The notes beneath the pieces are model-generated. The model was not told the DNA's origin and did no database searches. It saw nothing but the letters and a program-made list of their open reading frames with translations. A program made the translations under genes and the position numbers. Below, piece by piece: positions 45,078-61,190 of a stretch of 64,000 nucleotides of DNA. Source of the stretch: Comamonadaceae bacterium. Its GTDB lineage: Bacteria > Pseudomonadota > Gammaproteobacteria > Burkholderiales > Burkholderiaceae_C. Every line of letters starts with the position of its first letter. Position 1 is the stretch's first letter. The stretch covers positions 1-64,000 of the forward strand of contig CANJPU010000022.1 in NCBI GenBank assembly GCA_947476285.1, in the 5' to 3' direction.

Positions 45078-48000
45078 TCGCGAACCTTATTCGCTGGTCG
45101 GTGGGCAACCGCTTCCTGGTGCTGTTGGCCACCGTCATGCTCACGGCCTGGGGCGCGTGGGGCCTGCGCAGCACGCCCATCGACGCCTTGCCTGATCTAT
45201 CGGATGTGCAGGTCATCATCCGCGCCAGCTACCCCGGCCAGGCGCCGCAGATCGTAGAGAACCAAGTCACCTATCCACTGGCCACCACCATGCTCTCGGT
45301 GCCCGGTGCCAAGACCGTGCGCGGCTTCTCGTTCTTTGGCGATTCGTTTGTCTATGTGTTGTTCGAAGACGGCACCGATTTGTATTGGGCTCGCTCGCGC
45401 GTGCTTGAATACCTCAATCAGGTTCAAGGCCGATTGCCCGCCACCGTCAAGACCAACCTGGGTCCTGATGCCACCGGCGTCGGCTGGATTTTTCAGTACG
45501 CGTTGGTGGACCGCAGTGGCGCCAATGACCTGTCGCAACTGCGCGCGTTGCAAGACTGGTTCCTGCGCTTTGAGCTCAAGGGCCTGCCCAACGTGGCCGA
45601 GGTGGCATCTGTGGGCGGCATGGTCAGGCAATACCAGGTGGTGCTCGACCCGATGAAGCTGGCAGCCTACGGGGTCACGCAATCGCAAGTGCGCGAGGCG
45701 CTGATGGGCGCCAACCAGGAGAGCGGCGGGTCGGTGCTTGAGCTGTCTGGCGCGGAGTACATGGTGCGCGCCAGCGGGTACCTGAAGACGCTCGATGACT
45801 TTCGCGCCATCCCCTTGTCGGCGCGCCGAGGTGTGCCGGTGCGCCTGGGCGATGTGGCGGTGCTGCAGATCGGGCCGGAGATGCGGCGCGGCATCGCTGA
45901 GCTCGACGGCGAAGGCGAAGTTGCCGGTGGCATCGTGATTTTGCGTTCGGGAAAAAATGCGCAGGAGACGATTGCTGCGGTGAAGGCCAAACTCAATGAG
46001 CTCAAGTCCAGCCTGCCAAAGGGTGTGGAGATCGTCACCACCTACGACCGCAGTGCCTTGATTGAGCGGGCCATTGCCAACCTCACCAGCAAGCTGGTGG
46101 AAGAATTCATTGTGGTCGCGCTGGTGTGCGTCATCTTCCTGTGGCATTTGCGATCGGCCCTGGTGGCCATCATGGCGCTGCCGCTGGGTGTCTTGATGGC
46201 CTTTCTGGTGATGCGCTATCAGGGCATCAATGCCAACATGATGTCGCTGGGTGGCATCGCGATTGCAATTGGCGCCATGGTGGACGCCGCCGTGGTGATG
46301 ATAGAGAACGCGCACCGCAAGCTCGAAGAATGGCAGCATGCCCATACGGGTGAGAAGCTCCAGGGCCAGGCGCGTTGGGATGTCATCACGCAGGCCGCTG
46401 TGGAAGTTGGCCCGGCCTTGTTTTTCTCGCTCTTGATCATCACGCTGTCTTTCATTCCTGTGTTCACTTTGCAGGCGCAAGAGGGTCGGCTGTTTGGTCC
46501 GCTGGCCTTCACCAAGACCTATGCCATGGCTGCGGCAGCGGGCTTGTCGGTCACGCTGATTCCCGTGCTCATGGGTTACTGGATTCGCGGGCGCATTCCC
46601 GATGAACAGAAAAATCCGATCACCCGCGTGCTGATCGCTGTGTACCGACCGGCGCTTGAATGGGTCTTGCGCTGGCCCAAGACCACGCTCTTGATCGCAG
46701 TGCTGGCGCTGGTCACCACCGTCTGGCCATTGGCGCGACTGGGCGGCGAATTCCTGCCGCGCATCGACGAGGGCGATCTCTTGTACATGCCATCGGCCTT
46801 GCCTGGCCTGTCGGCCCAACGCGCCGGTGAACTGCTGCAAATCACCAACCGCATGATCAAGACCGTGCCCGAGGTGGCCCGAGTGTTCGGCAAGGCCGGC
46901 CGCGCCGAGACCGCAACCGACCCCGCCCCAATGGAGATGTTCGAGACCACGATTCAACTCAAGCCGCACGATCAATGGCGCCCCGGCATGACACCCGAGC
47001 GCATCATCGAAGAGCTGGACAACGCAGTGAAGATTCCGGGCCTTGCCAACATCTGGGTGCCGCCTATTCGCAACCGCATCGACATGCTGGCCACCGGCAT
47101 CAAAAGCCCCATCGGTGTGAAGGTGACCGGCAGTGACCTGGCCGTGCTGGACCGTCTGGCCGCGCAGGTCGAGCAGGTGGCCAAGGGTGTGCCCGGCGTG
47201 AGCTCCGCGCTGGCCGAGCGACTCACAGGCGGGCGCTATGTGGACGTGCAGATCGACCGCGTCGCGGCCGGACGCTACGGCCTGAACATCGCCGAAGTGC
47301 AGGCCATCATCGCTGGCGCAGTGGGCGGCGAGAACGTGGGCGAGACGGTGGAAGGGCTGGCACGATTCCCGATCAATCTGCGCTATCCGCGCGAATGGCG
47401 CGATTCACCGGACAAACTGGTGCAGCTTCCCATCCTCACGCCCATGGGGCAGCAGATCACGCTGGGCACCATCGCGCGCATTGCCATCACCGATGGGCCG
47501 CCCATGCTAAAGAGCGAGAACGCGCGGCCTTCGGTGTGGGTCTATGTGGATGTGCGCGGACGCGACTTGGCCGCAGTGGCGCATGATCTGCGCGACGCAG
47601 TGGCCAAGGGCGTCAAGTTCGAGCCCGGCGTGAGTGTGGCCTACTCCGGCCAGTTCGAATACCTGGAGCGCGCCAACGAGCGACTGAAGGTGGTGGTGCC
47701 GGCCACGCTGATGATCATCCTGGTACTGTTGTACCTGACCTTCAAGCGTGTTGACGAAGCGGTGCTGATCCTGGCCACCTTGCCTTTCGCGCTCACGGGC
47801 GGCATCTGGTTTCTCTACCTCATGGGCTACAACCTGTCGATCGCCACCGGCGTGGGGTTTATTGCGCTGGCGGGCGTGGCCGCAGAGTTTGGTGTGGTGA
47901 TGCTGATTTATATCCGGCACGCACTGGAAGACCGATTGCGCGCCGGTGCGCCGCTCACTGCGGCCCTGCTACTCGATGCAATCCGCGAAGGCGCCGTCTT

Positions 48001-48202
48001 GCGTGTGCGACCCAAGGCCATGACAGTGGCCGTGATCCTCGCCGGCCTGGTGCCCATCGTGTGGGGCAGCGGCACCGGCTCTGAGGTGATGAGCCGCATT
48101 GCCGCGCCTATGCTCGGGGGCATGATCACAGCGCCGCTCTTGTCGCTGTTTGTGATTCCGGCGGCGTTTGCCTTGCTGCGGCGGCCGCGGCGTTTGGGCT
48201 AG
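45074..48202 (+). CDS. cusA: Cu(I)/Ag(I) efflux RND pump
   Basis: This 1042-residue heavy-metal RND transporter has 12 membrane helices and two large periplasmic loops. M572, M622 and M671 align, one residue off, with the three methionines of E. coli CusA (573, 623, 672) that bind Cu(I) or Ag(I), and D404 fits the proton-relay aspartate in helix 4 ([17 protein letters not shown]). Both features favour copper/silver over Zn/Co/Cd. ATGA overlap with cusB indicates one transcript. No cusRS regulator or cusF is in the window. Confidence 0.95.
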
Positions 48203-48214
48203 GGGGCCAGCGCC

Positions 48215-48574
48215 CTAAAACCCGATCGACAACAAAGCACCCGCCGCAACCAGCGTGATTAACATCGCGCCGCCATAGCAGGCGAGTTTTGCGACCGTGC
48301 CCGTGTGCACACCCACATCATGCAGGCTGTGATAGATGCGGTGCACCGCATGCCAGGCAAACAGCATGATGATGGCAAACACAAAGCCCTTGCCAATCCA
48401 GTGCTGCGAAAAAGCCAGCATGCGCGGATAACTCAGCAGGTTGGGGGATGCCAGCCAGCCCAGTGGCGATGCAATGCCGGTGATGAAGACCAGTGCCGTG
48501 CCGAACAAGGCGGACAACATGCCACCAGCGCCGAACAAGAGCCAGAAGATGGGAGCGTTGGAGCGTTTTCTCAT
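48215..48574 (-). CDS. frdD: fumarate reductase membrane subunit D
   Basis: This 119-residue membrane anchor has three hydrophobic helices and the pattern RSNAPIFWLLFGAGGMLSAL at the start, with HAVHRIYHSLHDVG near residue 80-93, as in FrdD of the four-subunit fumarate reductase. It holds part of the quinol site. The start at 48574 overlaps the frdC stop as ATGA. It is the last gene of the minus-strand respiratory cluster and convergent with cusA. Confidence 0.9.
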   Translation of the reverse strand: MRKRSNAPIFWLLFGAGGMLSALFGTALVFITGIASPLGWLASPNLLSYPRMLAFSQHWIGKGFVFAIIMLFAWHAVHRIYHSLHDVGVHTGTVAKLACYGGAMLITLVAAGALLSIGF

Positions 48575-48978
48575 CTCAGCCCCCACACCAGCAAGAGCAC
48601 CAGCACCGTGACGACCACCACTGCCGCATAACCGCTTCGCGTGATGGCCGAAGCCTCAACGCGCTTGCCACCGATGAACATGATGGGCATGGTCTTGGGC
48701 ATGATGTCAAACCAGCTCTTGGCATGCACCACCATGCAGACCAACAGCACAAGGTGCAGCAAGATGGACCCTGGCGAGCCCAGCGCGGCCAACCAGCCGC
48801 TCCATGCGGCTTCGCCTTGCGAGAGCCGTACCACGCCAACACAAAGCACCACTGCATAGACCAGCACCGCGATGGCGGTGGCCTCGCGGATCATGTAGCT
48901 CATGAAGAAGGGGTCGCGCCGCCACCATCCCTGCATCGGCCGGATGTAGGCTTTGCGCACTGTGGAAGGGCGGTTCAT
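48571..48978 (-). CDS. frdC: fumarate reductase membrane subunit C
   Basis: This 135-residue membrane anchor begins TVRKAYIRPMQGWWRRDPFF then YMIREAT, the FrdC signature, and has three hydrophobic helices. With FrdD it anchors FrdAB and binds the quinol, in the heme-free E. coli manner. The ATG at 48978 overlaps frdB by 4 bases; a longer frame reads into frdB and is not real. Confidence 0.93.
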   Translation of the reverse strand: MNRPSTVRKAYIRPMQGWWRRDPFFMSYMIREATAIAVLVYAVVLCVGVVRLSQGEAAWSGWLAALGSPGSILLHLVLLVCMVVHAKSWFDIMPKTMPIMFIGGKRVEASAITRSGYAAVVVVTVLVLLLVWGLR

Positions 48979-49727
48979 TTCGTCATTCCTTTGGGTGAGA
49001 GGAATCGAAGGAAGTAATCCTTGGCGCTGTTGACCTTGTTTTGGTTCACTGCGTTGGCCGGGTCCACACCCTTGGGGCAGACTTCTGAGCAGTAGCCCAC
49101 GGCGGTGCAGCTCCACACGCCTTCTTCGGCATTCATGATTTCCATGCGCTGCTCGCGCCCGCCGTCGCGCGAATCGGCGTTGTAGCGGTGCAGCAGGGCC
49201 AGCACGCCCGGGCCGGTGAAGTCGGGGTCCAGCCCGAACTGCGGGCAGGCCGCGTAGCACAGCATGCAGTTGATGCAGGAGCTGAACTGCTCGAACTGTT
49301 CCAACTGCGCCGGCGTCTGCAAATACTCGCCTTGTTCCAGCGTGCGCGGCTCTTTCGCGATGATGTAGGGCTTGATGCTCTCCAGCTTGGAGACAAAGCC
49401 CTGCACATCAACTACCAGGTCGCGCTCGATGGGAAAATGCGCGAGCGCTTCCACCCGCACTGGCCCGGGAAGAAATTCGCGCAGAAAAGTCTGGCAGGAA
49501 AGATTGGGCTTGCCGTTGATCATCATGCCGCAGCTTCCGCAGATCGCCATGCGACAGGACCAGCGGAAACTCACGCTGCCATCGAGCTCGTCCTTGATGT
49601 ACTGCAGGCCTTGCAGCACCGACATGTCCTCGGTGTAGGGCACTTGGTAGCTCTGCCAGACCGGCTCACTCTCTTGCTCGGGCCGATAGCGCAGAACCTG
49701 TATTTCTATGCGAGGTGTATCAGGCAT
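48975..49727 (-). CDS. frdB: fumarate reductase iron-sulfur subunit
   Basis: This 250-residue protein carries all three iron-sulfur centres: C58, C63, C66 and C78 for the [2Fe-2S] cluster; C151, C154, C157 with C217 for [4Fe-4S]; C161, C207 and C213 for [3Fe-4S]. It passes electrons from the quinol site to the FAD of FrdA. The start overlaps the frdA end by 8 bases. Confidence 0.96.
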   Translation of the reverse strand: MPDTPRIEIQVLRYRPEQESEPVWQSYQVPYTEDMSVLQGLQYIKDELDGSVSFRWSCRMAICGSCGMMINGKPNLSCQTFLREFLPGPVRVEALAHFPIERDLVVDVQGFVSKLESIKPYIIAKEPRTLEQGEYLQTPAQLEQFEQFSSCINCMLCYAACPQFGLDPDFTGPGVLALLHRYNADSRDGGREQRMEIMNAEEGVWSCTAVGYCSEVCPKGVDPANAVNQNKVNSAKDYFLRFLSPKGMTK

Positions 49728-51513
49728 TGGCTTGTTCCTTGGCCTTGCGGTCGGCTTCTTCGCCGGCCGCGCCGTAGGCGCGTGTGCCCGGCGTGGAGCT
49801 GGTGATTTTTACCGGGCCGTAGTCGATGCGGGGCGCGTCGCCGCCTTGGTAGACCGCCAGCGAGTGCTTGAGATAGTTGACGTCGTCTCGGTTCTCGAAG
49901 CCATCGAGCCGCTGATGCGAGCCGCGTGATTCACGCCGCTGGAGAGCCGAGTGGGCCATTGCCTGTGCCACATCAAGCAGATAACCCAACTCGATGGCCA
50001 GCAGCCATTCGGTGTTCCAGCCGCGTGAGTGATCGTCCAGCTTCACCGATTGGTAGCGTTCTTTGAGCTCGGCCAGCTTGTCGCAGGTCTCCTGCATGGT
50101 CTGCGCCATGCGGTAGATGCCGCAACCGTCTTCCATGCTCTTGGCCATCTCGCGGCGCAGCGTGGCAATGCGCTCGGTGCCGCCCTTGCCTGGGTCCACG
50201 ATGGCCATCGCATTGCGCATGGCTTGATCGGCCTGGCTCTCCAGTGCCGCAGTGTTGGCGGGGCCTGCCGATTTGGCAAAGGCCACGGCCTGCATGCCCG
50301 CCATCTTGCCGAACACCAGCAGTTCGGTGAGGGAATTGGAGCCCAGCCGATTTGCGCCGTGTATACCCACGCTGGAGCATTCACCCACCGAGTAAAGGCC
50401 GGGCAAGGTGGATGCGGTCTTGCCATCGGCGGTGATGCCGCCCATGGTGTAGTGCACGGCCGGCAGCACCGGAATGGGCGCCTTGGCTGGATCGACGCCT
50501 AGGTATTCGACCGCCAGCTCATAAATCTGCGGCAGGCGTTCGCGCAATTTCTTCTCGCCCAGGTGGCGCAAGTCCAGGTGAACCACATCGCCGTGCGGGC
50601 CTTGAATGGTGCGGCCCTTTTGCTTCTCGTGCCAGTAGGCCTGGCTCAGGCGGTCGCGCGGGCCTAGCTCCATGGCCTTGTTGCGCGGCGTCGGCTCGGC
50701 CGGCCCCAGACCGTAGTCTTGCAGATAGCGGTAGCCGTCTTTGTTGAGCATGAAGCCGCCTTCGCCGCGGCAAGCTTCGGTGAACAAGAGGCCGGTGCCG
50801 GGCATGCAGGTGGGGTGGTACTGCACGAACTCCATGTCGCGCAGCGGCACGCCGTGCCGGTAGGCCAGCGCCATGCCGTCGCCAGTGACAATGCCGCCAT
50901 TGGTGTTCTCGCGAAACACCCGGCCAGCGCCGCCCGTGGCGATGATCACCGCCTTGCCTTGTATCAGTCGGAACTGCCCGGTGGCGATTTCAATAGCCAC
51001 CACGCCTTGCGCGCGGCCTTCATCGACCAGCAAGTCCAGGCAGAAGTGTTCATCGAAGCGCCGGATAGACGGATACTTGATCGAGGTCTGGAACAGCGTG
51101 TGCAGCATGTGAAAGCCGGTCTTGTCGGCGGCGAACCATGTGCGCTCGATCTTCATGCCGCCAAAGGCGCGCACATTGGCATGGCCATCGGGGGTGCGGC
51201 TCCAGGGGCAACCCCAGTGCTCCATCTGCACCATCTCTTCATGGGCCTGGCCCACGAAGTATTCGACCACATCCTGCTCGCACAGCCAATCGCCGCCGGC
51301 CACCGTGTCGTGGAAGTGTGCTTCCAGGCTGTCGTGCGCCTGCGTCACCGCAGCAGCGCCACCCTCGGCCGCCACCGTGTGGCTGCGCATGGGGTAGACC
51401 TTGGAGATCAGCGCGATGCTGAGCTTGGGGTCAGCCTCGGCTACCGCGATCGCGGCGCGTAGACCGGCGCCGCCGGCTCCCACGATCACCACGTCCGCTT
51501 TGAAAGTTTCCAT
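49720..51513 (-). CDS. frdA: fumarate reductase flavoprotein subunit
   Basis: FrdA reduces fumarate to succinate in anaerobic respiration. The 597-residue protein has a dinucleotide-binding VIVGAGGAGLRAAIA, H45 in MRSHTVAAEGG for the covalent FAD link, and the active-site IHGANRLGSNSL. Length and its FrdBCD partners place it as quinol:fumarate reductase rather than aerobic SdhA. The ATG at 51513 has a GAAGAGA site; the longer open frame crosses the rquA relic and is spurious. Confidence 0.95.
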   Translation of the reverse strand: METFKADVVIVGAGGAGLRAAIAVAEADPKLSIALISKVYPMRSHTVAAEGGAAAVTQAHDSLEAHFHDTVAGGDWLCEQDVVEYFVGQAHEEMVQMEHWGCPWSRTPDGHANVRAFGGMKIERTWFAADKTGFHMLHTLFQTSIKYPSIRRFDEHFCLDLLVDEGRAQGVVAIEIATGQFRLIQGKAVIIATGGAGRVFRENTNGGIVTGDGMALAYRHGVPLRDMEFVQYHPTCMPGTGLLFTEACRGEGGFMLNKDGYRYLQDYGLGPAEPTPRNKAMELGPRDRLSQAYWHEKQKGRTIQGPHGDVVHLDLRHLGEKKLRERLPQIYELAVEYLGVDPAKAPIPVLPAVHYTMGGITADGKTASTLPGLYSVGECSSVGIHGANRLGSNSLTELLVFGKMAGMQAVAFAKSAGPANTAALESQADQAMRNAMAIVDPGKGGTERIATLRREMAKSMEDGCGIYRMAQTMQETCDKLAELKERYQSVKLDDHSRGWNTEWLLAIELGYLLDVAQAMAHSALQRRESRGSHQRLDGFENRDDVNYLKHSLAVYQGGDAPRIDYGPVKITSSTPGTRAYGAAGEEADRKAKEQANA

Positions 51514-51554
51514 GGCGTCTCTTCGTTGTGCTTCTTGGTATTGCGTTGAGTCAA

Positions 51555-52187
51555 TCAGCGGGTCAGCACCAGCTTCTGGTAGAGCCCGCCGTAGTAGGTG
51601 AGTTTCTCGATGGCGGCGGGGCGCACCGCCTCCGGCATGAAGGCTTCGATCTCGTTTTGCCACAGGTCCATGGCATAGGGCTCCAACTTGCGGAACACCC
51701 CAGTCATCAACAGGCGCAGTGGGTGCCACGGCCTGGGCCGGTGGTAGTCCACAATCACGATCTTGCCGCCGGGCCGTGTCACGCGCAGCGCCTCGGCCAG
51801 CGTCGCGCGGCGCACCGCCTCGGGTTGTTCGTGCAAGAGAAAGAACAACAGCACCTGGTCATAGCTGGCATCCGGGCAGGCCAATGAGGAACTGTCGCCT
51901 TGCAGCAAGGCCACACGCTCATCGGCCGGCAGTTTGGCCGCGAGGTTCTTGAGCTGAATCGGCAGTATGTCCACGATGTCCAGGCTGGCTTCGGGCGCCA
52001 GGCGGGCAAGCAGGCGCGGCGTGAGGTCGCCATAGACGCAGGCCACCTGCAAGATATTGCCACTGACCTGCTGGCCCAGATCGTCCAGTGCCGCATTGCG
52101 CAGCCGGCCGTAGTTGCCAAAGAGGATCAGATTGACCAGCCACTCGCGCTCGAAGATGTGGACTGCCTTGGGGTGAACGTATGCCCG
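51555..52187 (-). pseudogene. rquA: rhodoquinone biosynthesis methyltransferase RquA, 5' end lost
   Basis: The frame reads AYVHPKAVHIFEREWLVNLI, LFGNYGRLRNAAL, LQVACVYGDLTPRLLARL, then QVLLFFLLHEQPEAVRR and GGKIVIVDYHRPRPWHPLR, which is RquA through to its end. RquA converts ubiquinone to the low-potential rhodoquinone used by fumarate reductase. The usual first part (about 25-40 residues) is absent, an in-frame TAA lies just before AYVHP, and the only internal starts are TTG/GTG around 52052, after conserved N-terminal sequence. frdA follows 41 bases downstream. Probably non-functional. Confidence 0.85.
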
Positions 52188-53490
52188 TTAGCGTCAGCAG
52201 CATCAAGCTCAAGGCGAACACCAGATGGGCGATGCGCCAGATGGGGCTGAAGCGTTGCACATGCTTCGTATGTAACTGGGCAGGCACCTCGTCGAGCCTG
52301 ACGTGTTGATGGCCGCCGCGCGCTTTGCGCTCCTTGTATTCACGGTAGAACCACAGGGCGGTGTGCAGCCAGAAGAAGGCAAAGGTGCCCACCAGCAAGC
52401 CGGCCATCATCTGGAATGCAATCCAGATCTCAGGGTAGCGACTGAAGTCGTGCGCATTGCCGTGTGGCTGGAAGCTGGCAAAACCCGCTGGCACGTCCGG
52501 CAAGCCCTTCTTGGCGTTGTGGCACTCCTGGCATGTCTTCATCCGGTTGTCCGGGTGCACTTTGGACTTCGGGTCCTTGGTGCGCACGATCTGATGGCTG
52601 CCGTGGCAATCGAAGCACTTGGCGGTGTAGCTGTAGCCCAGGGTGGTGATGCTGCCGTGGAAGGTGTCCTTGTAAGAATCAAGCTGCGCCTTGTGGCAGT
52701 TTCCGCAGTTTGCTGAGACGGCCAGCTTGAAGGGGTCACCAGAAGTGTTGCTCACGGCATGCGCGCTGTGGCAATCGGAGCAGACGGCTGCCTGCGCCAG
52801 CATGTTCTTGCTGTTCTCTTGCCCGTGCACCGAGCCCAGGTAGGCTTCAAGCTGGTCGGTGTGGCATTGAGCGCCGCAAGTCTTGGGAATGCCCAGGCGC
52901 CACTGGTTGTGTTCCGGCGAATTTTTCGGCGGAACGTTGAAGCTGTGGGTGTCGTGGCAGTTGTCGCACGATGCGTTTGGCCGGGTCTTGTCGTCAGCGT
53001 TGGGCCGCGCGTGGAATGACTTTTTGTAGGCTTCTATGTTCTTGGCCACAACGCCCAGCCTTGGCCGCTCTTCGGCCCGCCCGCGCTTTTGTGTCTGCTC
53101 CCACAATTCCTGGTGACATCCGGCGCAGTCCACTTTCTTCAGCGGCTCGGCTGTGTTTTTCGCATGGGCGTTGCCTTTTTCGGCGTTGTCCGTGATGTCC
53201 GAATGGCATGCCACGCACTGCATCCTGGCATGCACGCCTTTTGCGAACTGCTCCGGCGCAACGCCACGCAAGGCCCGTTGCTTGCCGTCGGGCGTGGCAA
53301 CTTCCAGCTTGGCTTTTTTGCCGTCATGGCAGCCTAGGCAGTTTGTGTTTTCAAGCGCAGGCGCTGCAGCTGCTTGCGCGGCTGCGTCGAAGCTGAGGCC
53401 GCACAAGGCAAGACTGCATGCCAGCAGCCAGTATGAAAACTTGATGCGCCACAGGCCCCGTGGCAGACGCAGGCTGAGCAATAGCTGCAT
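51919..53490 (-). pseudogene. multiheme cytochrome c with membrane domain, 3' end lost
   Basis: The frame encodes a signal or anchor (about residues 10-40), then eight CxxCH heme sites (CLGCH, CVACH, CAGCH, CDNCH, CSDCH, CGNCH, CFDCH, CQECH) and one unusual CGAQCH, then two membrane segments (WIAFQMMAGLLVGTFAFFWLH and IAHLVFALSLMLLTLTG). After about 436 residues, near 52183, it runs into rquA in the wrong frame and stops at 51919. Relatives, as I know them, continue with more b-type cytochrome helices. The 3' end and the rquA 5' end were lost together. It would have carried electrons between quinol and periplasmic acceptors. Confidence 0.78.
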
Positions 53491-53539
53491 GATGAGCACT
53501 TTCCCATGACGGGCAGAAGAATGATGGCGGTGTCGCATG

Positions 53540-54187
53540 TCAACCGTGGGCACTGTCGAGCAGCTTGTGCTCGATTGCGTAACGTACCAGTTCGACCTGG
53601 CCTGCCAGAGTCATTTTGTCCAGAATGTTGGACTTGTGCGTACTGATTGTCTTGATGCTCAGCGAAAGCTCGTCTGCGATCTCGGTCAGCTTGGCGCCGC
53701 TGATGATGCGGCTGAAAATGCCATACTCACGGTCTGTCAGGCGCGTGTGCGGAAGATGGTCGGTGTCGCGTACCGGGTCAGTGGCGAGGAGTTCGCTGAC
53801 CTTCTGGCTGAAATAAACACTGCCACCAGCCACTTTGCGCATGGCCTGCAGAAGTGACTCGGCATCTGTTTGTTTTGAAACATAGCCCGCCGCGCCGGCC
53901 CGTATGGCCCGAACCGCGTACAGTTCTTCCCTGTGTGCACTGAAAACCAATATTGGCAGGCGAGGACTTTCACCCTTGAGCAACTTGATGAGTTCCAGGC
54001 CGCTGCGCCCTGGCATTGAAATATCCAGCACCAGCAGATCCCAGCCGCGATGGCGCACGCACTCCAGGGTGGCGTGTCCGTCGGCGGCTTCGCCTTCCAC
54101 CGAAAGGTCGTCGCATCCGCACAAGATTGCGCGCAGGCCCAGTCGAATGACCGGATGGTCGTCGGCTATCAATACCGCTCGCTTCAC
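53540..54187 (-). CDS. NarL/FixJ-type response regulator
   Basis: This 215-residue protein has a receiver domain with acidic D9/D10, phosphoacceptor D55 in LLVLDISMPG and lysine in YVSKQT, and a C-terminal LuxR-type HTH (LTDREYGIFSRIISGAKLTE, IADELSLSIKTISTHKSNIL). The GTG start at 54187 has GGAGG 5 bases upstream. No sensor kinase is nearby, so it is an orphan here. It is upstream of the cytochrome, rquA and frd genes on the same strand and divergent from ccm, which makes it the likely local regulator. Confidence 0.92.
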   Translation of the reverse strand: MKRAVLIADDHPVIRLGLRAILCGCDDLSVEGEAADGHATLECVRHRGWDLLVLDISMPGRSGLELIKLLKGESPRLPILVFSAHREELYAVRAIRAGAAGYVSKQTDAESLLQAMRKVAGGSVYFSQKVSELLATDPVRDTDHLPHTRLTDREYGIFSRIISGAKLTEIADELSLSIKTISTHKSNILDKMTLAGQVELVRYAIEHKLLDSAHG

Positions 54188-54293
54188 TCACACCTCCAGA
54201 AGTACTTTGCAATTATTTTTCGTATCTGAACGGGCCCCTGCGAGAGCCCAATTCCAATGCCTAGAGTGTGTGATTGACCTGATCCCGAGCCCG

Positions 54294-54307
54294 TTGATCT
54301 ATGTCAA
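54294..54307. promoter_or_regulatory. FNR/Anr box in the divergent regulator-ccm region
   Basis: TTGAT-CTAT-GTCAA matches the palindromic FNR consensus TTGAT-N4-ATCAA at 9 of 10 positions. It lies 55 bases before the ccmA start and about 106 before the response regulator start, in the only intergenic region shared by the two units. An oxygen-sensing FNR/Anr protein bound here could switch on both cytochrome c maturation and the fumarate cluster without oxygen. Spacing to a mapped transcription start is unknown. Confidence 0.6.
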
Positions 54308-54361
54308 GCACACTGCATCGCCCGAGTTGGCATGCCACTTCGGCTTCAACACAATCGCCTC

Positions 54362-54967
54362 ATGTTGAGCAGCGTCAATCTGTCATGCGTGCGGGGTGAG
54401 CGCACCCTTTTCACTGGCCTGGGCCTGTCGGTCGCGCCGGGTCAATGGCTGCACGTGCGCGGTGCCAACGGTTGCGGCAAGACCAGCTTGTTGCGTCTGC
54501 TGGCGGGCCTGTCGCGGCCCGAGGCGGGCGATGTGCTCTGGGCCGGGGAGCCGATCGCGCAGCTGGGTGCGGCATGGCGCAGGGTGATGCTGTTCCTGGG
54601 CCACCATGCGGCCGTGAAAGACGATCTGACCGCCCGCGAAAACCTGGCATTGGCCGGCGCACTGGATGACTGCAATGCCTCTGACGCCGATGTGACCACC
54701 GCCTTGCATCGCTTCGGCCTCAAGGGCCGCGAAGACCTGCCGGTACGCGTCATGTCCGCCGGCCAGAAGCGCCGCGTGCTGCTGGCGCGCTTGCAAACGC
54801 GCAAGGCCAGTCTCTGGATTCTGGACGAGCCCTTCACCGCACTCGATACAAAAGCAGTAGAAATGCTGTCCGATTTGGTGGGTGAGCACCTCGCCGCAGG
54901 CGGCTGCGCGGTCATTACCAGCCATCAGCCGGTACCCCTGGCCTCCGGGAAGGTGCTGGACCTATGA
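54362..54967 (+). CDS. ccmA: cytochrome c biogenesis ABC ATPase CcmA
   Basis: CcmA powers release of heme-loaded CcmE from the CcmABCD complex. The 201-residue ATPase has Walker A GANGCGKTSLL near 35-45, a signature VMSAGQKRRVLLAR and Walker B LWILDEPF, with the switch histidine in TSHQP. The start at 54362 is preferred to an ATG 30 bases upstream. First of nine genes joined by 4-base overlaps. Confidence 0.95.
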   Translation: MLSSVNLSCVRGERTLFTGLGLSVAPGQWLHVRGANGCGKTSLLRLLAGLSRPEAGDVLWAGEPIAQLGAAWRRVMLFLGHHAAVKDDLTARENLALAGALDDCNASDADVTTALHRFGLKGREDLPVRVMSAGQKRRVLLARLQTRKASLWILDEPFTALDTKAVEMLSDLVGEHLAAGGCAVITSHQPVPLASGKVLDL

Positions 54968-55629
54968 GGGCCCTGGTGGCGGTGATCCGGCGCGACTTGC
55001 TGCTGGCGATGCGGCGCAAGACCGAAGTGCTCACCGCGCTTTTCTTCTTCGTCATCGTCACCAGTCTGTTTCCTTTGGGCATAGGACCCGAGCCTGCGCT
55101 CTTGCGCAAGATCGCACCGGGGGTGCTGTGGGTGGGCGCGCTTTTGGCCACCATGCTGGGCCTGCAGAGAATGTTCGCCGCAGACCATGCGGACGGCACC
55201 CTGGAGCAGATGGTGCTCTCACCCACGCCGCTGGTGCTGCTGGTGGCGGGCAAGAGCATCGCGCACTGGCTGGTGTCGGGCCTGCCGCTGGTGGTGCTGG
55301 CCCCTGTTCTTGGCATACAGTTCGACCTGGACGCGCAGGCGCTGGGCGTGCTGGCGCTGGCCTTGCTGCTGGGCACCCCGGTGCTTTCGCTGGTGGGCTC
55401 GATCGGTGCAGCCCTCACGCTCGGCGTGCGTGGCGGTGGCGTGCTGCTGAGCTTGCTGGTGCTGCCGCTGTTCATCCCGGCGCTGATTTTCGGCGCGGGT
55501 GCGGTGCAGGCCCATACTTCGGGGCAGGGGGCTGAAGGCCACTTGTCGCTGCTGGCCGCGCTGCTGGTGCTTTCCATGTTTTTCGCGCCCTGGGCAACCA
55601 CGGCTGCATTGAGGATCGCTGTCGAATGA
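54964..55629 (+). CDS. ccmB: heme exporter protein CcmB
   Basis: This 221-residue membrane protein has six hydrophobic helices. The start RALVAVIRRDLLLAMRRKTE is the CcmB cytoplasmic N-terminus, and FAADHADGTLEQMVLSP is its most conserved loop. It is the membrane half of the CcmAB transporter. ATGA overlaps with ccmA and ccmC. Confidence 0.95.
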   Translation: MRALVAVIRRDLLLAMRRKTEVLTALFFFVIVTSLFPLGIGPEPALLRKIAPGVLWVGALLATMLGLQRMFAADHADGTLEQMVLSPTPLVLLVAGKSIAHWLVSGLPLVVLAPVLGIQFDLDAQALGVLALALLLGTPVLSLVGSIGAALTLGVRGGGVLLSLLVLPLFIPALIFGAGAVQAHTSGQGAEGHLSLLAALLVLSMFFAPWATTAALRIAVE

Positions 55630-56375
55630 GCAATCGCATCGTCAACTGGTTTCGTCTGTCCAGCCCCGCCACCTTCTATCCGGTGGCGGGCAAGCTGATT
55701 CCCCTGTTCGTGGCCTTGGCCGTGATCTTCGGCGCCGCCGGCCTGTGGCTGAGTTTCTTTGTGGCGCCCACCGACGCAACACAGGGCGAGGGCTACCGCA
55801 TCATCTTTGTGCATGTGCCGGCATCGTGGATGTCCATGTTCATCTACCTTGTGATGGCCGGATGGGCTGGCTTTGGCCTGGCCTTCAACACCCGCCTGTC
55901 GGGCATGATGGCCCAGGCGCTGGCGCCCACTGGCGCCCTGATGGCCTTTCTGTCGCTGTGGACCGGCGCCTTCTGGGGCAAGCCCATGTGGGGCACCTGG
56001 TGGGTGTGGGATGCACGCCTGACATCCGAGCTGATCTTGTTTTTCCTTTATCTGGGCTTCATCGCATTGCAGGCGGCCATTGACGATCCTCGCCGGGCCG
56101 ACAAGGCCGGCGCCATCCTGGCGTTGGTGGGCGCGGTCAATGTGCCCATCATCTATTTCTCGGTCAAGTGGTGGAATACCTTGCACCAGGGCTCGTCGGT
56201 GTCTCTCACCCGCGCGCCGTCCATGGCGCAGACCATGCTGCTGGGCATGCTGCTGATGGCCTTGTGCTTCTGGATGTATTCGGTGGCCATGGCGCTCAAA
56301 CGCGTGCGAACCATTATTCTCGAACGCGAGTCACATACCGAATGGGTGCGCCAGTTGGCGGAGGTAAAGGCATGA
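55626..56375 (+). CDS. ccmC: heme-handling protein CcmC
   Basis: CcmC brings heme to CcmE on the outer face of the membrane. The 249-residue protein has six membrane helices and the tryptophan-rich heme loop WGTWWVWDARLTSELILF, preceded by IFVHVPASWM with a conserved histidine. ATGA overlaps on both sides. Confidence 0.96.
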   Translation: MSNRIVNWFRLSSPATFYPVAGKLIPLFVALAVIFGAAGLWLSFFVAPTDATQGEGYRIIFVHVPASWMSMFIYLVMAGWAGFGLAFNTRLSGMMAQALAPTGALMAFLSLWTGAFWGKPMWGTWWVWDARLTSELILFFLYLGFIALQAAIDDPRRADKAGAILALVGAVNVPIIYFSVKWWNTLHQGSSVSLTRAPSMAQTMLLGMLLMALCFWMYSVAMALKRVRTIILERESHTEWVRQLAEVKA

Positions 56376-56560
56376 GCTGGAATTCAGCTTCGGAATTTTT
56401 TGCAATGGGCGGCTACGCCCTTTATGTGTGGGGAAGCTTCGGCGCCTGCGCGCTGGCCATGGTGTTTGAGCCCCTGCTGGTGGGTCGCCGGCGTCAGGCC
56501 ATCATTCAAAGCCTGCGTCGCCAAGCGATGGCGGACCGTCTGGACAAGGAACATTCATGA
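56372..56560 (+). CDS. ccmD: heme exporter protein CcmD
   Basis: This 62-residue single-helix membrane protein reads [20 protein letters not shown] near the N-terminus, typical of CcmD, with a basic cytoplasmic tail ([12 protein letters not shown]). It helps assemble CcmC with CcmE. Start at 56372 overlaps the ccmC stop; the longer frame upstream is a shadow. Confidence 0.9.
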
Positions 56561-57009
56561 AAGCCTGGAAGAAACGCGGCGCCATTGTGGCGGGCGGATT
56601 GGTGGTGGTGGGCATTGCGGCGGCCCTGGTCTTGAACGCGCTCAACAGCAACATTGCGCTGTACGTCACGCCTTCTGAGGTGGCGGCTGGCAAGGCGCCA
56701 AAAGAGCAGGCCTTTCGCATCGGCGGCATGGTCAAGGAAGGCTCGGTCAAGCGCGACAACCTCACCGTGCACTTCATCGTCACCGACATGGCCCGTGACA
56801 TTCCCGTGGCCTACACCGGCATCCTGCCCGACCTGTTCAAGGAGGGCAAGGGCGCGGTGGTGCAGGGCAAGCTCGGCCCCGACGGCAAGTTCACTGCTTC
56901 CGAAGTGCTGGCCAAACACGATGAAAACTACATGCCGCCGCAGGCCCAGCATGCGCTGGACCAGGCCAAGGCGGCGCAGCAGATGCAGCAGAAAGCAGCC
57001 AAGCCATGA
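56557..57009 (+). CDS. ccmE: heme chaperone CcmE
   Basis: CcmE holds heme covalently in the periplasm. The 150-residue protein has an N-terminal anchor, an OB-fold middle and [11 protein letters not shown] with heme-binding H121 and the adjacent Y125, followed by a charged tail. This is the histidine form (HxxxY) rather than the cysteine variant. Overlaps ccmD and ccmF by 4 bases. Confidence 0.95.
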
Positions 57010-58955
57010 TTCCTGAACTCGGACATTTCGCCCTCATCCTCGCCTTGTGCGTGGCCATCGTGCTGGGCACGCTGCCCCTGATGGGTGCGCACCAGGGCCG
57101 CCGTGAATGGCTGGTGCTGGCAAGGCCGGCCGCGCAGGTGATGTTTCTGCTGGTGTCTGTTTCCATGGCTGCGCTGGCATGGAGCTTTTATGTCAATGAT
57201 TTTTCCGTGGCCTACGTGGCGGGGCACTCCAACTCGCTCTTGCCCACGGTCTATCGTCTGGCCGCCGTGTGGGGCGGGCATGAAGGCTCATTGCTGTTGT
57301 GGCTGTTCATGCTCGCGGGCTGGACGGTGGCGGTGGCGCAGCGTTCACGCACGCTGGACGAAACCATGGTGGCGCGTGTGCTGGGCGTGCTGGGGCTGGT
57401 GTCCACCGGCCTGATGCTCTTCGTGCTGCTCACATCCAACCCCTTTGACCGGCTGATTCCTGCAGCCCAAGACGGCCGCGATCTCAATCCGCTGCTGCAA
57501 GACCCAGGGCTCATCATTCATCCGCCCATGCTCTACATGGGCTATGTCGGTTTCTCCGTTGCGTTTGCTTTTGCCATCGCGGCCTTGTTGTCGGGCCGGC
57601 TCGACGCCGCCTGGGCACGGTGGTCGCGCCCGTGGACCACCACCGCCTGGATCTTCCTGACCCTGGGCATCGCGCTGGGTTCCTGGTGGGCCTACTACGA
57701 ACTCGGCTGGGGCGGCTGGTGGTTCTGGGACCCAGTGGAAAATGCCTCCTTCATGCCGTGGCTGATTGGCACCGCGCTCATGCACTCGCTGGCAGTCACC
57801 GAAAAGCGCGGCACTTTCAAAAGCTGGACAGTGCTGCTGGCGATAGGCGCGTTTTCACTCTCGCTGCTGGGTACTTTTCTGGTTCGCTCTGGCGTGCTCA
57901 CATCGGTGCATGCGTTCGCAACTGACCCGCGCCGTGGCGTGTTCATACTGATCTTGCTGGCTCTGGTGATCGGTGGTTCACTGGTGCTCTTTGCCTGGCG
58001 TGCGCCCAAAGTCGCGCTGGGCGGCACCTTCGCGCTGCTCTCGCGCGAAACCTTCATGCTGGTGGGCAATGTGCTGCTGGTGGTGGCTGCGGCATCCGTG
58101 CTGCTGGGCACGCTGTACCCGCTGCTGATTGATGCGCTGGGGCTGGGCAAGATTTCAGTGGGTCCGCCTTACTTCAATTCAGTGTTCGTGCCGGTCATGG
58201 CGCCTGTGCTCCTGCTCATGGCTGCTGTGCCGCTGGCACGTTGGAAGCATGCGCAACTGCGCGACATGGCAAGACGCTTGTGGTTGCCCGCCGCGTCGGC
58301 ACTGATCGGCAGCATCGCCATCCCCATGATGATGGGTGGCTGGAGCTGGCTCACCGCACTGGGTGTTGCGCTGGCAGTGTGGATCGGTGTGGCCATGCTG
58401 CAGCAGGTTGCCACTCGGCTCAGGTCGGGCAATCCGCCGCTGTCGTTCTGGGGCATGCACCTGGGCCACTTCGGTATCGCGGTGTTCGTCATGGGTGTCA
58501 CGCTGGTGGGCGGCTTCCAGGAAGAAAAGGATGTGCGCATGGAGCCTGGCGACACGGTGAGCGTGGGCGGCCATGAGTTCAAGTTCCTCGGTGTCAGGCA
58601 AGTGGCTGGGCCCAACTACGTTGCCGCGCGTGGCGAGTTCGAGGTGTCCAAGGGCGGCCGAGCCGGTGCCAATCTGTTCCCTGAGAAGCGCAACTATCAG
58701 TCTTCCTCCATGCCCATGACCGAGGCGGCCATTGATGCGGGCTTCACCCGCGATGTGTACGTGTCGCTGGGCGAGCCGCTTGAAGGCCGGGCCTGGGCGG
58801 TTCGCGTCTACTACAAGCCTTTTGTTAACTGGATCTGGGGTGGCTGCCTCTTGATGGCGCTGGGCGGCCTGTTCGCTGTGCTCGACAAGCGGTACCGCCT
58901 GCGCGTCAAGTCCACCGCGACTGAGAGCACGACGATGCTGGGGGCTTCGACATGA
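57006..58955 (+). CDS. ccmF: cytochrome c heme lyase subunit CcmF
   Basis: This 649-residue protein with about 15 membrane helices attaches heme to apocytochrome c with CcmH. The tryptophan-rich loop [18 protein letters not shown] near residue 235-252 is diagnostic, and [12 protein letters not shown] comes earlier. Length is normal. Overlaps on both sides. Confidence 0.96.
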
Positions 58956-59482
58956 AGGCACGCTTTCTCATTCCGCTGGCGCTTTTCATTGTGCTGGTTG
59001 GCTTTCTGGCGGTGGGCCTGCAGCGAGACCCCCGCGAGATACCTTCGCCCTTGGTGGACAAGGCCGCGCCGATTTTCAAGGTGTCGCAACTGATAGAGGC
59101 CGACAAGCCTTTTTCGCCGCAAGACATGAAGGGCCAGGTCTGGATGCTCAACGTCTGGGCATCGTGGTGCGTGGCCTGCCGGGTCGAACACCCACTGCTG
59201 GTGGAGATCAAGCGCTCAGGCATCGTGCCCCTGGTCGGCCTGGACTACAAAGACCAGCGCCCCGACGCGCTGAAGTTTCTCAGCCAGCATGGCGACCCCT
59301 ATATGCTCTCTGCCTTTGATGGCGATGGCCGCGTGGGCATCGACTACGGCGTCTATGGTGTGCCCGAAACCTTCATCATCGACAAGAACGGCGTCATCCG
59401 CCACAAGCAGATCGGGCCCATCACCGAAGAGGCGCTGCAAAAAACCATCTTGCCCTTGATTCAAAAGTTGAAGCAATCATGA
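58952..59482 (+). CDS. ccmG: thiol:disulfide interchange protein CcmG/DsbE
   Basis: CcmG keeps the heme-binding cysteines of apocytochrome c reduced. The 176-residue protein has an N-terminal anchor and a thioredoxin fold with C73 and C76 in WASWCVACRVEHP; YGVYGVPETF is the cis-proline loop. The CVAC active site fits the DsbE group (WCxxC). 4-base overlaps with ccmF and ccmH. Confidence 0.95.
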   Translation: MKARFLIPLALFIVLVGFLAVGLQRDPREIPSPLVDKAAPIFKVSQLIEADKPFSPQDMKGQVWMLNVWASWCVACRVEHPLLVEIKRSGIVPLVGLDYKDQRPDALKFLSQHGDPYMLSAFDGDGRVGIDYGVYGVPETFIIDKNGVIRHKQIGPITEEALQKTILPLIQKLKQS

Positions 59483-59940
59483 GATTTTTTTTCGCATGGA
59501 TGATGCTCGCCCTGTGCATGGCCACGGCCAGCGCCAAGGAGGCCGCGCCGCTGGCCGAAGACCCGGCCGTGGAGCAGCGCCTGGTTGCCATATCCGAAGA
59601 GATGCGCTGCCTGGTCTGCCAGAACGAATCGCTCTCGGCGTCACGCTCCGATCTGGCGCAGGATTTGCGGCGCGAATTGCGCACGCTTATCCGCCAGGGC
59701 AAGAGCGATGCCGAGATTCGCGATTTCATGGTCAGCCGCTATGGTGATTTCGTGCTCTATCGGCCGCGCGTCAAGCCCGAGACTTGGTTGCTTTGGGCTG
59801 GCCCGTTTGTGCTGATGGGGGTGGCAGTGATGGTGCTGCTGGTTTACCTGCGCCGGCGCAACCGCGCCGTGCCTGAGGCCGAATTGACCGAAGACGAAAC
59901 CCGCCGCGCCCAGGCGCTGCTTGCTGAGGGTGACAAATGA
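59479..59940 (+). CDS. ccmH: cytochrome c-type biogenesis protein CcmH (CcmL-type)
   Basis: This 153-residue membrane-anchored thiol protein has a signal peptide, the redox motif MRCLVCQNES with C44 and C47, and a C-terminal membrane helix (LLWAGPFVLMGVAVMVLLVY). It reduces apocytochrome cysteines and feeds CcmF. In this genome CcmH and CcmI are separate genes, unlike the fused E. coli form. Confidence 0.94.
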   Translation: MRFFFAWMMLALCMATASAKEAAPLAEDPAVEQRLVAISEEMRCLVCQNESLSASRSDLAQDLRRELRTLIRQGKSDAEIRDFMVSRYGDFVLYRPRVKPETWLLWAGPFVLMGVAVMVLLVYLRRRNRAVPEAELTEDETRRAQALLAEGDK

Positions 59941-61190
59941 CTGTGTTCGTGATCGCCGCCCTTGTGGCGGTGCTGCTTGTGCTGGCCTTGCTGCTTCGCC
60001 CCTTCTTGCGCACCACTGCCAGCGCGCAAACATCGCAGCGGCAACTCAATGCCGCCATCTACCGCGAACAAATCGCCAAGCTGGAGCAAGACCTTGCCGA
60101 AGGCTCGCTCGCACAAGCCGACTATGCGCAGGCTCGCACCGAGCTGCAGCGGCGCGCGCTGGACGACACCAGTGAGCAAGATGCCACCGCCAGACTGCAT
60201 GCCCCCAAGCGCACCGTGGTGGCCTTGGCCCTCGTGCTGCCGCTGGTGGCCGTAGGGCTGTATCTGCTGATCGGTTCGCCGGCGGCTCTGTCGAGCGGCG
60301 GGGGATCGGCCCACATGCAAAACCCGCAAGACATGGAACGCCTGGTGGCTGGCCTGGCGAAAAAACTCGAAAGCGAGCCCGACAACCTCAAGGGCTGGGC
60401 CATGCTGGCGCGCTCCTACAAGGTGATGGGCCGCAGCCAGGAGGCCGAGAAGGCATTCGAGCGCGCTGGCAGCTTCATCGACAACGACGCCTCCATGCTG
60501 GCCAACTATGCCGACGTGGCTGCTGCCAACGCCGGCGGCCGTCTGGCCGGCAAGCCGGCGCAGTTGATCGCCAAGGCATTGCAGGCCGACCCGAGCAACG
60601 CCATGGCGCAGTGGCTGGCCGGCACTGCGGCGCTGGAGGTCCGGGACTACGCCCGAGCACTGGCGATCTGGCAACGCTTGCTGACGCAGATGGAGCCCGG
60701 ATCGGAAGATGCCCGCATGCTCCAAGGTGCCATCGAAGATGTGCGGTCTAAGTCCGGTGCTGTGGCGGCGCTGCCGCCTGCGGCAGCCGGTGCGGGGCCG
60801 CGTATAGCTGCTGCAGCAAGCCCCGGCGCGCCGGCAGCCGCCACCGCTGGCGCCAGCGTCAGCGGCACGGTCGAACTCGACGCATCGATGAAAGCGCGTG
60901 CAGAGCCCGGCGCCACGCTGATGGTCATCGCCCGCCTGCCCGGCACCCGCATGCCCCTGGCTGTGCTGCGCGTGCCGGCCTCGCAGTTCCCCGCGAAATT
61001 CACGCTCGATGATTCCCTCGCCATGAACCCGCAGGCGCTCATCTCCACTGCCCGCGAGGTGGAGTTGGAAGCCCGCATCTCCAAGTCCGGCCAGGCCAAG
61101 CCAGAGCCGGGCGATCTTTATTCGGCGGCGCAGACGGTGAAGGTGGGTGCCAAGGGGGTGGCGCTCCGGGTGGGGCAGGTGAGGCAGTAG
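59937..61190 (+). CDS. ccmI: cytochrome c biogenesis protein CcmI (TPR)
   Basis: This 417-residue protein has an N-terminal membrane helix, a second one near residue 80-97 (VVALALVLPLVAVGLYLL), then TPR units (LKGWAMLARSYKVMGRSQEA and NAMAQWLAGTAALEV), followed by a C-terminal beta domain (GTVELDASMKARAEPGATLM). CcmI binds the C-termini of apocytochromes c. Last gene of the ccm operon; convergent with the Smr gene. Confidence 0.92.
   Translation: MTVFVIAALVAVLLVLALLLRPFLRTTASAQTSQRQLNAAIYREQIAKLEQDLAEGSLAQADYAQARTELQRRALDDTSEQDATARLHAPKRTVVALALVLPLVAVGLYLLIGSPAALSSGGGSAHMQNPQDMERLVAGLAKKLESEPDNLKGWAMLARSYKVMGRSQEAEKAFERAGSFIDNDASMLANYADVAAANAGGRLAGKPAQLIAKALQADPSNAMAQWLAGTAALEVRDYARALAIWQRLLTQMEPGSEDARMLQGAIEDVRSKSGAVAALPPAAAGAGPRIAAAASPGAPAAATAGASVSGTVELDASMKARAEPGATLMVIARLPGTRMPLAVLRVPASQFPAKFTLDDSLAMNPQALISTAREVELEARISKSGQAKPEPGDLYSAAQTVKVGAKGVALRVGQVRQ

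Follow-up and report, generated by a model that had tools for sequence, protein, structure and literature searches.

A locus in which a multihaem cytochrome gene runs straight into rquA, beside the fumarate reductase genes frdABCD, raises the question of what once lay between the two genes and what the organism lost with it. The window, that is, the whole stretch of 64,000 nucleotides that was analysed, comes from a contig of a Comamonadaceae bacterium, and a sequence-only reading of it had proposed that a deletion fused the two genes and broke both.

The junction and its flanks

The features of the locus are as follows:

48215..48574, minus strand: frdD, membrane subunit of fumarate reductase (NF003977, E 7e-34, over cut-off)
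48571..48978, minus strand: frdC, membrane subunit (NF003445, E 2e-31, 108.7 bits, below the cut-off of 143; model positions 3-128 of 130)
48975..49727, minus strand: frdB, iron-sulfur subunit, intact (NF009051, 411 bits, over cut-off)
49720..51510, minus strand: frdA, fumarate reductase flavoprotein, intact (NF006686, 1053 bits, over cut-off)
51555..52184, minus strand: rquA remnant from AYVHP to the stop, which lacks the start codon and about 34 residues of the N-terminus but has a complete catalytic core
51919..53490, minus strand: present-day frame of 523 aa from its ATG, made up of 437 native residues and an 86-residue out-of-frame tail through rquA
52181..52186, minus strand: deletion junction, GGGCAT, the overlap common to both homology edges
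52181..53490, minus strand: first 437 codons of the gene for a multihaem cytochrome c / cytochrome b fusion protein, with eight CXXCH motifs and one CX3CH motif kept
53540..54187, minus strand: LuxR/NarL-type response regulator (general response-regulator matches), beside the cytochrome in relatives too
54332..61190, plus strand: cytochrome c maturation genes ccmA, ccmB, ccmC, ccmE, ccmF and ccmI, divergent from the cluster (58956-59936 left out)

The junction is real and exact. When positions 47000-58000 of the window were compared by blastn with the loci of ten relatives, the cytochrome-side match began at 52181 in all five loci with the cytochrome, and the rquA-side match ended at 52186 in all eight loci with rquA. 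From the ATG at 53490 the cytochrome frame stays native as far as the junction (about 52180), 437 residues that end in TLTGI, and the rquA frame is native from 52184 (AYVHP) to 51558, with a stop that ends at 51555; at the junction the two frames are offset by one base. These edges confirm the places, after TLTG near 52183 and from AYVHP at 52184, at which the cytochrome resemblance had been read as lost and the rquA resemblance as gained, and together with the intact genes of relatives they uphold a deletion that joined and truncated both genes. The TAA that had been placed immediately before AYVHP is present (52190-52188), but it is not directly adjacent, one CGG codon intervening before the GCA. 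The absence of a conserved rquA start was likewise borne out: the first ATG, GTG or TTG in this frame is the TTG at 52052, residue 45.

Short-homology deletion of bacterial DNA is ordinary in kind, and there is nothing unusual about it here: as in other such deletions in bacterial genomes, the edges in the window have 4-6 bases in common and the DNA between them is gone. The earlier suggestion that all six bases of GGGCAT fit both partners was not upheld, although the deletion itself was. A perfect 6-bp match is doubtful because the lost rquA copy would need the alanine codon GCA at its edge, which is found in none of 37 relatives (GCC in 24, GCG in 11, GCT in 2); GGGCnT, five of the six bases, is the safer statement of the shared sequence. 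Random joins within the L046 locus of a relative share at least 6 bases in 0.26% and at least 4 bases in 2.35% of 200,000 trials, and help from short homology is therefore plausible but not strong.

A conduit cluster in the relatives

Four contigs of the same genus, presumably Ramlibacter, carry the cytochrome gene and rquA, both intact and on one strand. The two points that are neighbours in the window lie 12,204 bases apart in L044, 12,875 in L045 (R. lithotrophicus), 7,250 in L046 and 23,141 in G005 (L047/L048). In L045 and L046 the gene order is ccmCBA-regulator-cytochrome-mtrC-mtrA-mtrB-rquA-frdAB, with which the order in L047/L048 and in L044, a stretch that holds no ccm, is consistent. 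Both flanks of the junction are colinear with the relatives, with ccm and the response regulator before the cytochrome and frdABCD after rquA. The deletion would be several to many kilobases long, roughly 7-23 kb if the ancestor resembled these relatives, a length that comes from the relatives only and on which they differ among themselves.

Three proteins of the L046 block exceed curated family cut-offs: (i) an OmcA/MtrC-family cytochrome (TIGR03507, 580 bits), (ii) a DmsE/MtrA-family decahaem cytochrome (TIGR03508, 279 bits) and (iii) an MtrB/PioB barrel (TIGR03509, 392 bits). Relatives of MtrA, MtrB and MtrC are also found in the blocks of L044, L045 and L047/L048, and the gap between mtrB and rquA holds a small cytochrome c frame of about 110-136 residues (L044, L045, L046 and L053 examined). 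Judged by these relatives, the missing block is predicted to have encoded an MtrCAB-type outer-membrane electron conduit and a small cytochrome c. The likeness to the MtrCAB systems of Shewanella and of betaproteobacterial groups (PMC8805035) lies in the presence of all three family proteins in the L046 block and in the adjoining ccm genes, as the available text of that paper reports for mtrCAB of R. lithotrophicus; the differences are that several Ramlibacter genomes have the cluster in linkage with rquA-frdABCD and that the window's genome has it deleted. This putative MtrCAB extracellular electron conduit, the main content of the deletion, had been missed by the sequence-only reading, and the chief function lost was probably electron exchange with the outside, beyond a quinol for fumarate reductase.

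The lost parts were searched for in the rest of the assembly, a draft of 117 contigs and 4.89 Mb that is 94.9% complete; the search covered the cytochrome back half, MtrA, MtrB and MtrC. In a set with one genome per species, the front half of the cytochrome occurs in 18 of 147 genomes, the window's included, and the back half in 17, which are exactly the 17 others with the front half; the window's 4.89 Mb assembly is the sole front-half genome in which no back half was found. Neither MtrB (present in 27 of the 147 genomes, in 25 over the cut-off) nor the MtrA family has a match in the window's assembly, and the MtrC family has only three matches there, all below the cut-off and all inside the truncated cytochrome. 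Scattering of MtrA, MtrB, MtrC and the cytochrome back half over other contigs of the assembly is rejected on this lack of matches. Because the searched parts are absent elsewhere in the assembly, the event is a deletion of the conduit and not a mere fusion of two genes; absence alone is no proof, but joint absence and an exact junction are hard to explain other than by loss.

A single deletion, in an ancestor with the full run, thus very probably removed the conduit, truncated the cytochrome and beheaded rquA. The ancestor would have carried, in this order, ccm, the regulator, the multihaem cytochrome b-c gene, one or more mtrC, mtrA, mtrB, the small cytochrome c, rquA and frdABCD. One deletion, with ends sharing 4-6 bases, would then have excised all the DNA between about codon 438 of the cytochrome and about codon 34 of rquA. 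The cytochrome would have lost most of its membrane part and rquA its start codon, and frdABCD would have come nearer to the upstream region of the cytochrome.

Related arrangements occur elsewhere, and the full run is not shared by all relatives: L138 (G025) and L139 (G008) have the cytochrome grouped with mtrCAB in a stretch that contains no rquA. Five betaproteobacterial metagenome-assembled genomes (MAGs; L080, L099, L104, L105 and L114) have the same cytochrome directly before rquA on one strand, with 177-199 bases between the matches and no frdA match within the locus. In two other genera, cytochrome and rquA are far from each other on long single contigs (G066:C1 and G076:C1). The cytochrome is uninterrupted at positions 10711-16700 of L137 (G003:C214), where the response regulator is matched in two pieces; by eye (L007), a small monohaem cytochrome and a NapC/CymA-like protein follow it near the contig end, and this assembly has no rquA or mtrB match. 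A Rhodoferax MAG (L128, 1469-3684) shows, upstream of rquA, an mtrB match split into two pieces that overlap. Another Ramlibacter genome (L140, G014:C1:2170605-2172753), which has no rquA match, has an MtrB-family barrel gene matched in three separate pieces, possibly an independent decay of a conduit.

The cytochrome of the relatives continues for about 240 residues past the window's junction. Hydropathy analysis, with overlapping calls merged, predicts six membrane segments in the intact L046 protein, the last four beyond the junction. The membrane part of an intact relative gives a weak match to formate dehydrogenase gamma (E 6e-7, below cut-off), the best solved-structure match is 1kqf_C at only E 0.054, and the AlphaFold model of an intact relative is too poor for use (mean pLDDT 48.3). 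By its architecture, a multihaem c front and an FdnI-like membrane back, the intact cytochrome would be quinol-oxidase-like, as is Geobacter CbcL, the comparison being one of domain architecture. CbcL is described as a bc-type complex in the accessible part of PMC12307469; unlike this bc-type menaquinol oxidase, the cytochrome in the window is truncated and lies in a genome with no detected menaquinone route. The neighbouring genes suggest that the intact protein may have oxidised a quinol and fed outer-membrane conduits.

How closely conduit and rquA belong together depends on the taxonomic range considered. Every one of the genus's 13 other genomes that match rquA also has mtrB, which ends at most 0.8 kb upstream of rquA on the same strand in seven, lies 4.9 kb away on the other strand in one and is on another contig in five; three same-genus genomes have mtrB and no rquA match. 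The Fisher test within the genus (p 1e-10) is a guide only, since the genus size (59 others) is inferred and kinship ignored. Among the best 80 of 197 rquA loci, of which only 45 extend 9 kb upstream, 18 have the cytochrome back half near rquA and 11 have mtrB there, distant matches being counted; 26 have at least one of the two, and 41 have an frdA of at least 50% identity. Across 399 genomes sampled evenly from the order, MtrB is present in 4 of 15 other rquA genomes versus 37 of 383 without rquA; this co-occurrence is weak (one-sided p 0.057), and a strong order-wide coupling was not upheld. Two of the four order-sample genomes with both have them close on one contig, at 141 bases and 14 kb.

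In the literature, rquA has been placed near genes for respiratory complexes, cytochromes and haem (Stairs et al. 2018, PMC5953543, available text), and PMC11707229 and PMC13386864 treat its distribution, with no mention of Mtr in their accessible portions. Open-access searches found no paper linking rquA or rhodoquinone with MtrB, mtrC or Rhodoferax Fe(III) reduction, and the available texts that pair rquA or rhodoquinone with extracellular electron transfer contain no Mtr link. Within the open-access papers searched, an association of mtrCAB with a quinol-oxidase-like cytochrome, rquA and frd is apparently unreported.

The ancestral linkage suggests rhodoquinone-linked electron export. Electrons may have passed from rhodoquinol (rhodoquinone potential about -63 mV, according to the text available of PMC9814641) to the cytochrome, on to MtrCAB and to an acceptor outside, with fumarate as the acceptor inside. 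Tentatively, and with somewhat less than an even chance, the intact cluster can be regarded as a self-contained module for rhodoquinone-linked extracellular respiration, in which RquA would convert ubiquinone to low-potential rhodoquinone, the cytochrome b-c would oxidise rhodoquinol and MtrCAB would export the electrons, FrdABCD being the inside alternative. The cluster might instead have been oxidative, with Mn(II) or Fe(II) as the source of the electrons taken up; rquA and frd would then be neighbours that share no job with it. This alternative, a serious one that we nevertheless consider doubtful, draws on the expression of mtrCAB by R. lithotrophicus on Mn(II) in coculture (PMC8805035, accessible text), on the weak co-occurrence across the order and on the groups of cytochrome and mtrCAB without rquA in L138 and L139; the presence of mtrB in every other rquA genome of the genus, and of the cytochrome back half or mtrB near rquA in 26 of 80 loci, speaks against it.

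The remnants of RquA and the cytochrome

That RquA is broken had been read from the missing start and N-terminus, which are indeed missing; loss of activity was overstated, since the catalytic core is present. The remnant matches the NCBIfam RquA model (NF038261) with 272.8 bits against a cut-off of 175, over model positions 12-218 of 218. Its D72, invariant in 22 sequences, and D97, nearly so, correspond to D118/D143 of R. rubrum RquA by the same 25-residue spacing, not by alignment. The 209 residues that remain are predicted to fold completely, as a methyltransferase-type domain (mean pLDDT 91.3), and yeast Coq5 is one of the closest solved structures. By aspartate spacing only, again not by alignment, residue 1 of the remnant is about residue 47 of R. 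rubrum RquA. In E. coli, that protein shortened by 40 residues at the N-terminus is reported to give quinones in the same composition as the full-length form, with no difference to be seen (PMC9814641, available text). Most of the missing part would therefore correspond to a stretch that is dispensable there, the last few missing residues lying outside the truncation described. The start codon is a harder loss than the roughly 34 residues, and the ribosome site presumably went with it. RquA activity is likely lost in the window's genome, unproven because the R. rubrum truncation is reported to be active.

A second rquA, for which the earlier reading had left room, was not found in the assembly and is rejected, the next-best match being only 29% identical (E 9e-10). 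One genome of the order sample, G289, has two separate rquA-like matches (C42 and C28).

Lineage-unique changes were counted in six triplets per gene, with G035 and G005 as the only sisters. The ratio of amino-acid-changing to silent changes in the window's lineage is 0.29-0.50 for rquA and 0.33-0.42 for the cytochrome, with 0.08-0.30 for frdA and 0.14-0.41 for frdB; the rquA value lies between those of the sisters (0.07-0.18 in G005, 0.9-1.0 in G035). Compared with relatives, neither remnant contains a stop or frameshift. This substitution pattern is compatible with a recent deletion and equally with continued use, and a short neutral phase after the deletion may be compatible with the rquA ratios, two sisters being the whole comparison.

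The deletion could be real and rquA still work, by way of an unusual start codon or a +1 slip from the cytochrome frame. A CCC-C run at 52173-52170, just past the junction, is such a slip site. The activity of truncated R. rubrum RquA, the approximate position of the remnant's first residue, the core predicted whole with its Coq5-like fold and the mostly silent changes in rquA are in keeping with this, but we consider it unlikely: the TTG at residue 45, before which there is no ATG, GTG or TTG, falls at the first core strand of the predicted fold; the lost YWW motif, present in 25 of 26 relatives read (YSW in L046), is probably beyond the truncation tested; and RquA made by slippage would come after the second membrane helix of the cytochrome and probably be periplasmic, away from SAM, to judge by hydropathy.

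It is improbable that the joined arrangement is old and kept, with the truncated cytochrome as a new membrane-anchored periplasmic cytochrome. The nine haem motifs, as in two intact relatives, a membrane helix and the ccm genes do persist, and the silent-to-changing pattern looks constrained, but the tail is out-of-frame rquA sequence, all 17 other front-half genomes have the back half and the conduit to be fed is missing. Least probable, by a shade, is a chimeric read or strain mixture that joined the ends while the genome keeps an intact cluster: the assembly is a 117-contig draft judged from its contigs without reads, and the junction overlap is at most 6 bases, but an overlap of 6 bases is too short for graph assemblers to join contigs, the gene order on either side is that of relatives, and mtrA, mtrB, mtrC and the cytochrome back half are absent from the 4.89 Mb.

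Quinones and electron export

That frdABCD is intact, as had been read, is upheld by the family matches, that of frdC being below its cut-off; the frdC and frdD starts were read from the sequence. None of the best 25 matches listed for the response regulator is over its cut-off. The general lack of menaquinone in Burkholderiales, to which the earlier reading had pointed, agrees with this genome: no MenD over the cut-off was found in the assembly (nine weaker matches, the best at 82.8 bits versus 244.2), and the MqnA/MqnD family has no match, which leads us to reject menaquinone as a substitute quinol. The ancestral pathway would be lost here, and probably rhodoquinone as well, leaving FrdABCD deprived of a favourable quinol.

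Which quinol stands behind electron export in menaquinone-less bacteria is, to our knowledge, not settled. If the module exists as proposed, its rhodoquinone step (about -63 mV) would answer this question, such bacteria could use the module for respiration on solids, and a natural knock-out of it would be at hand in the window's genome. The deletion is ordinary in kind; the linkage of rquA, cytochrome, conduit and frd that it exposes may not be. Several Ramlibacter genomes have this run and other betaproteobacteria have parts of it, to which the window adds the apparent natural loss of the whole module.
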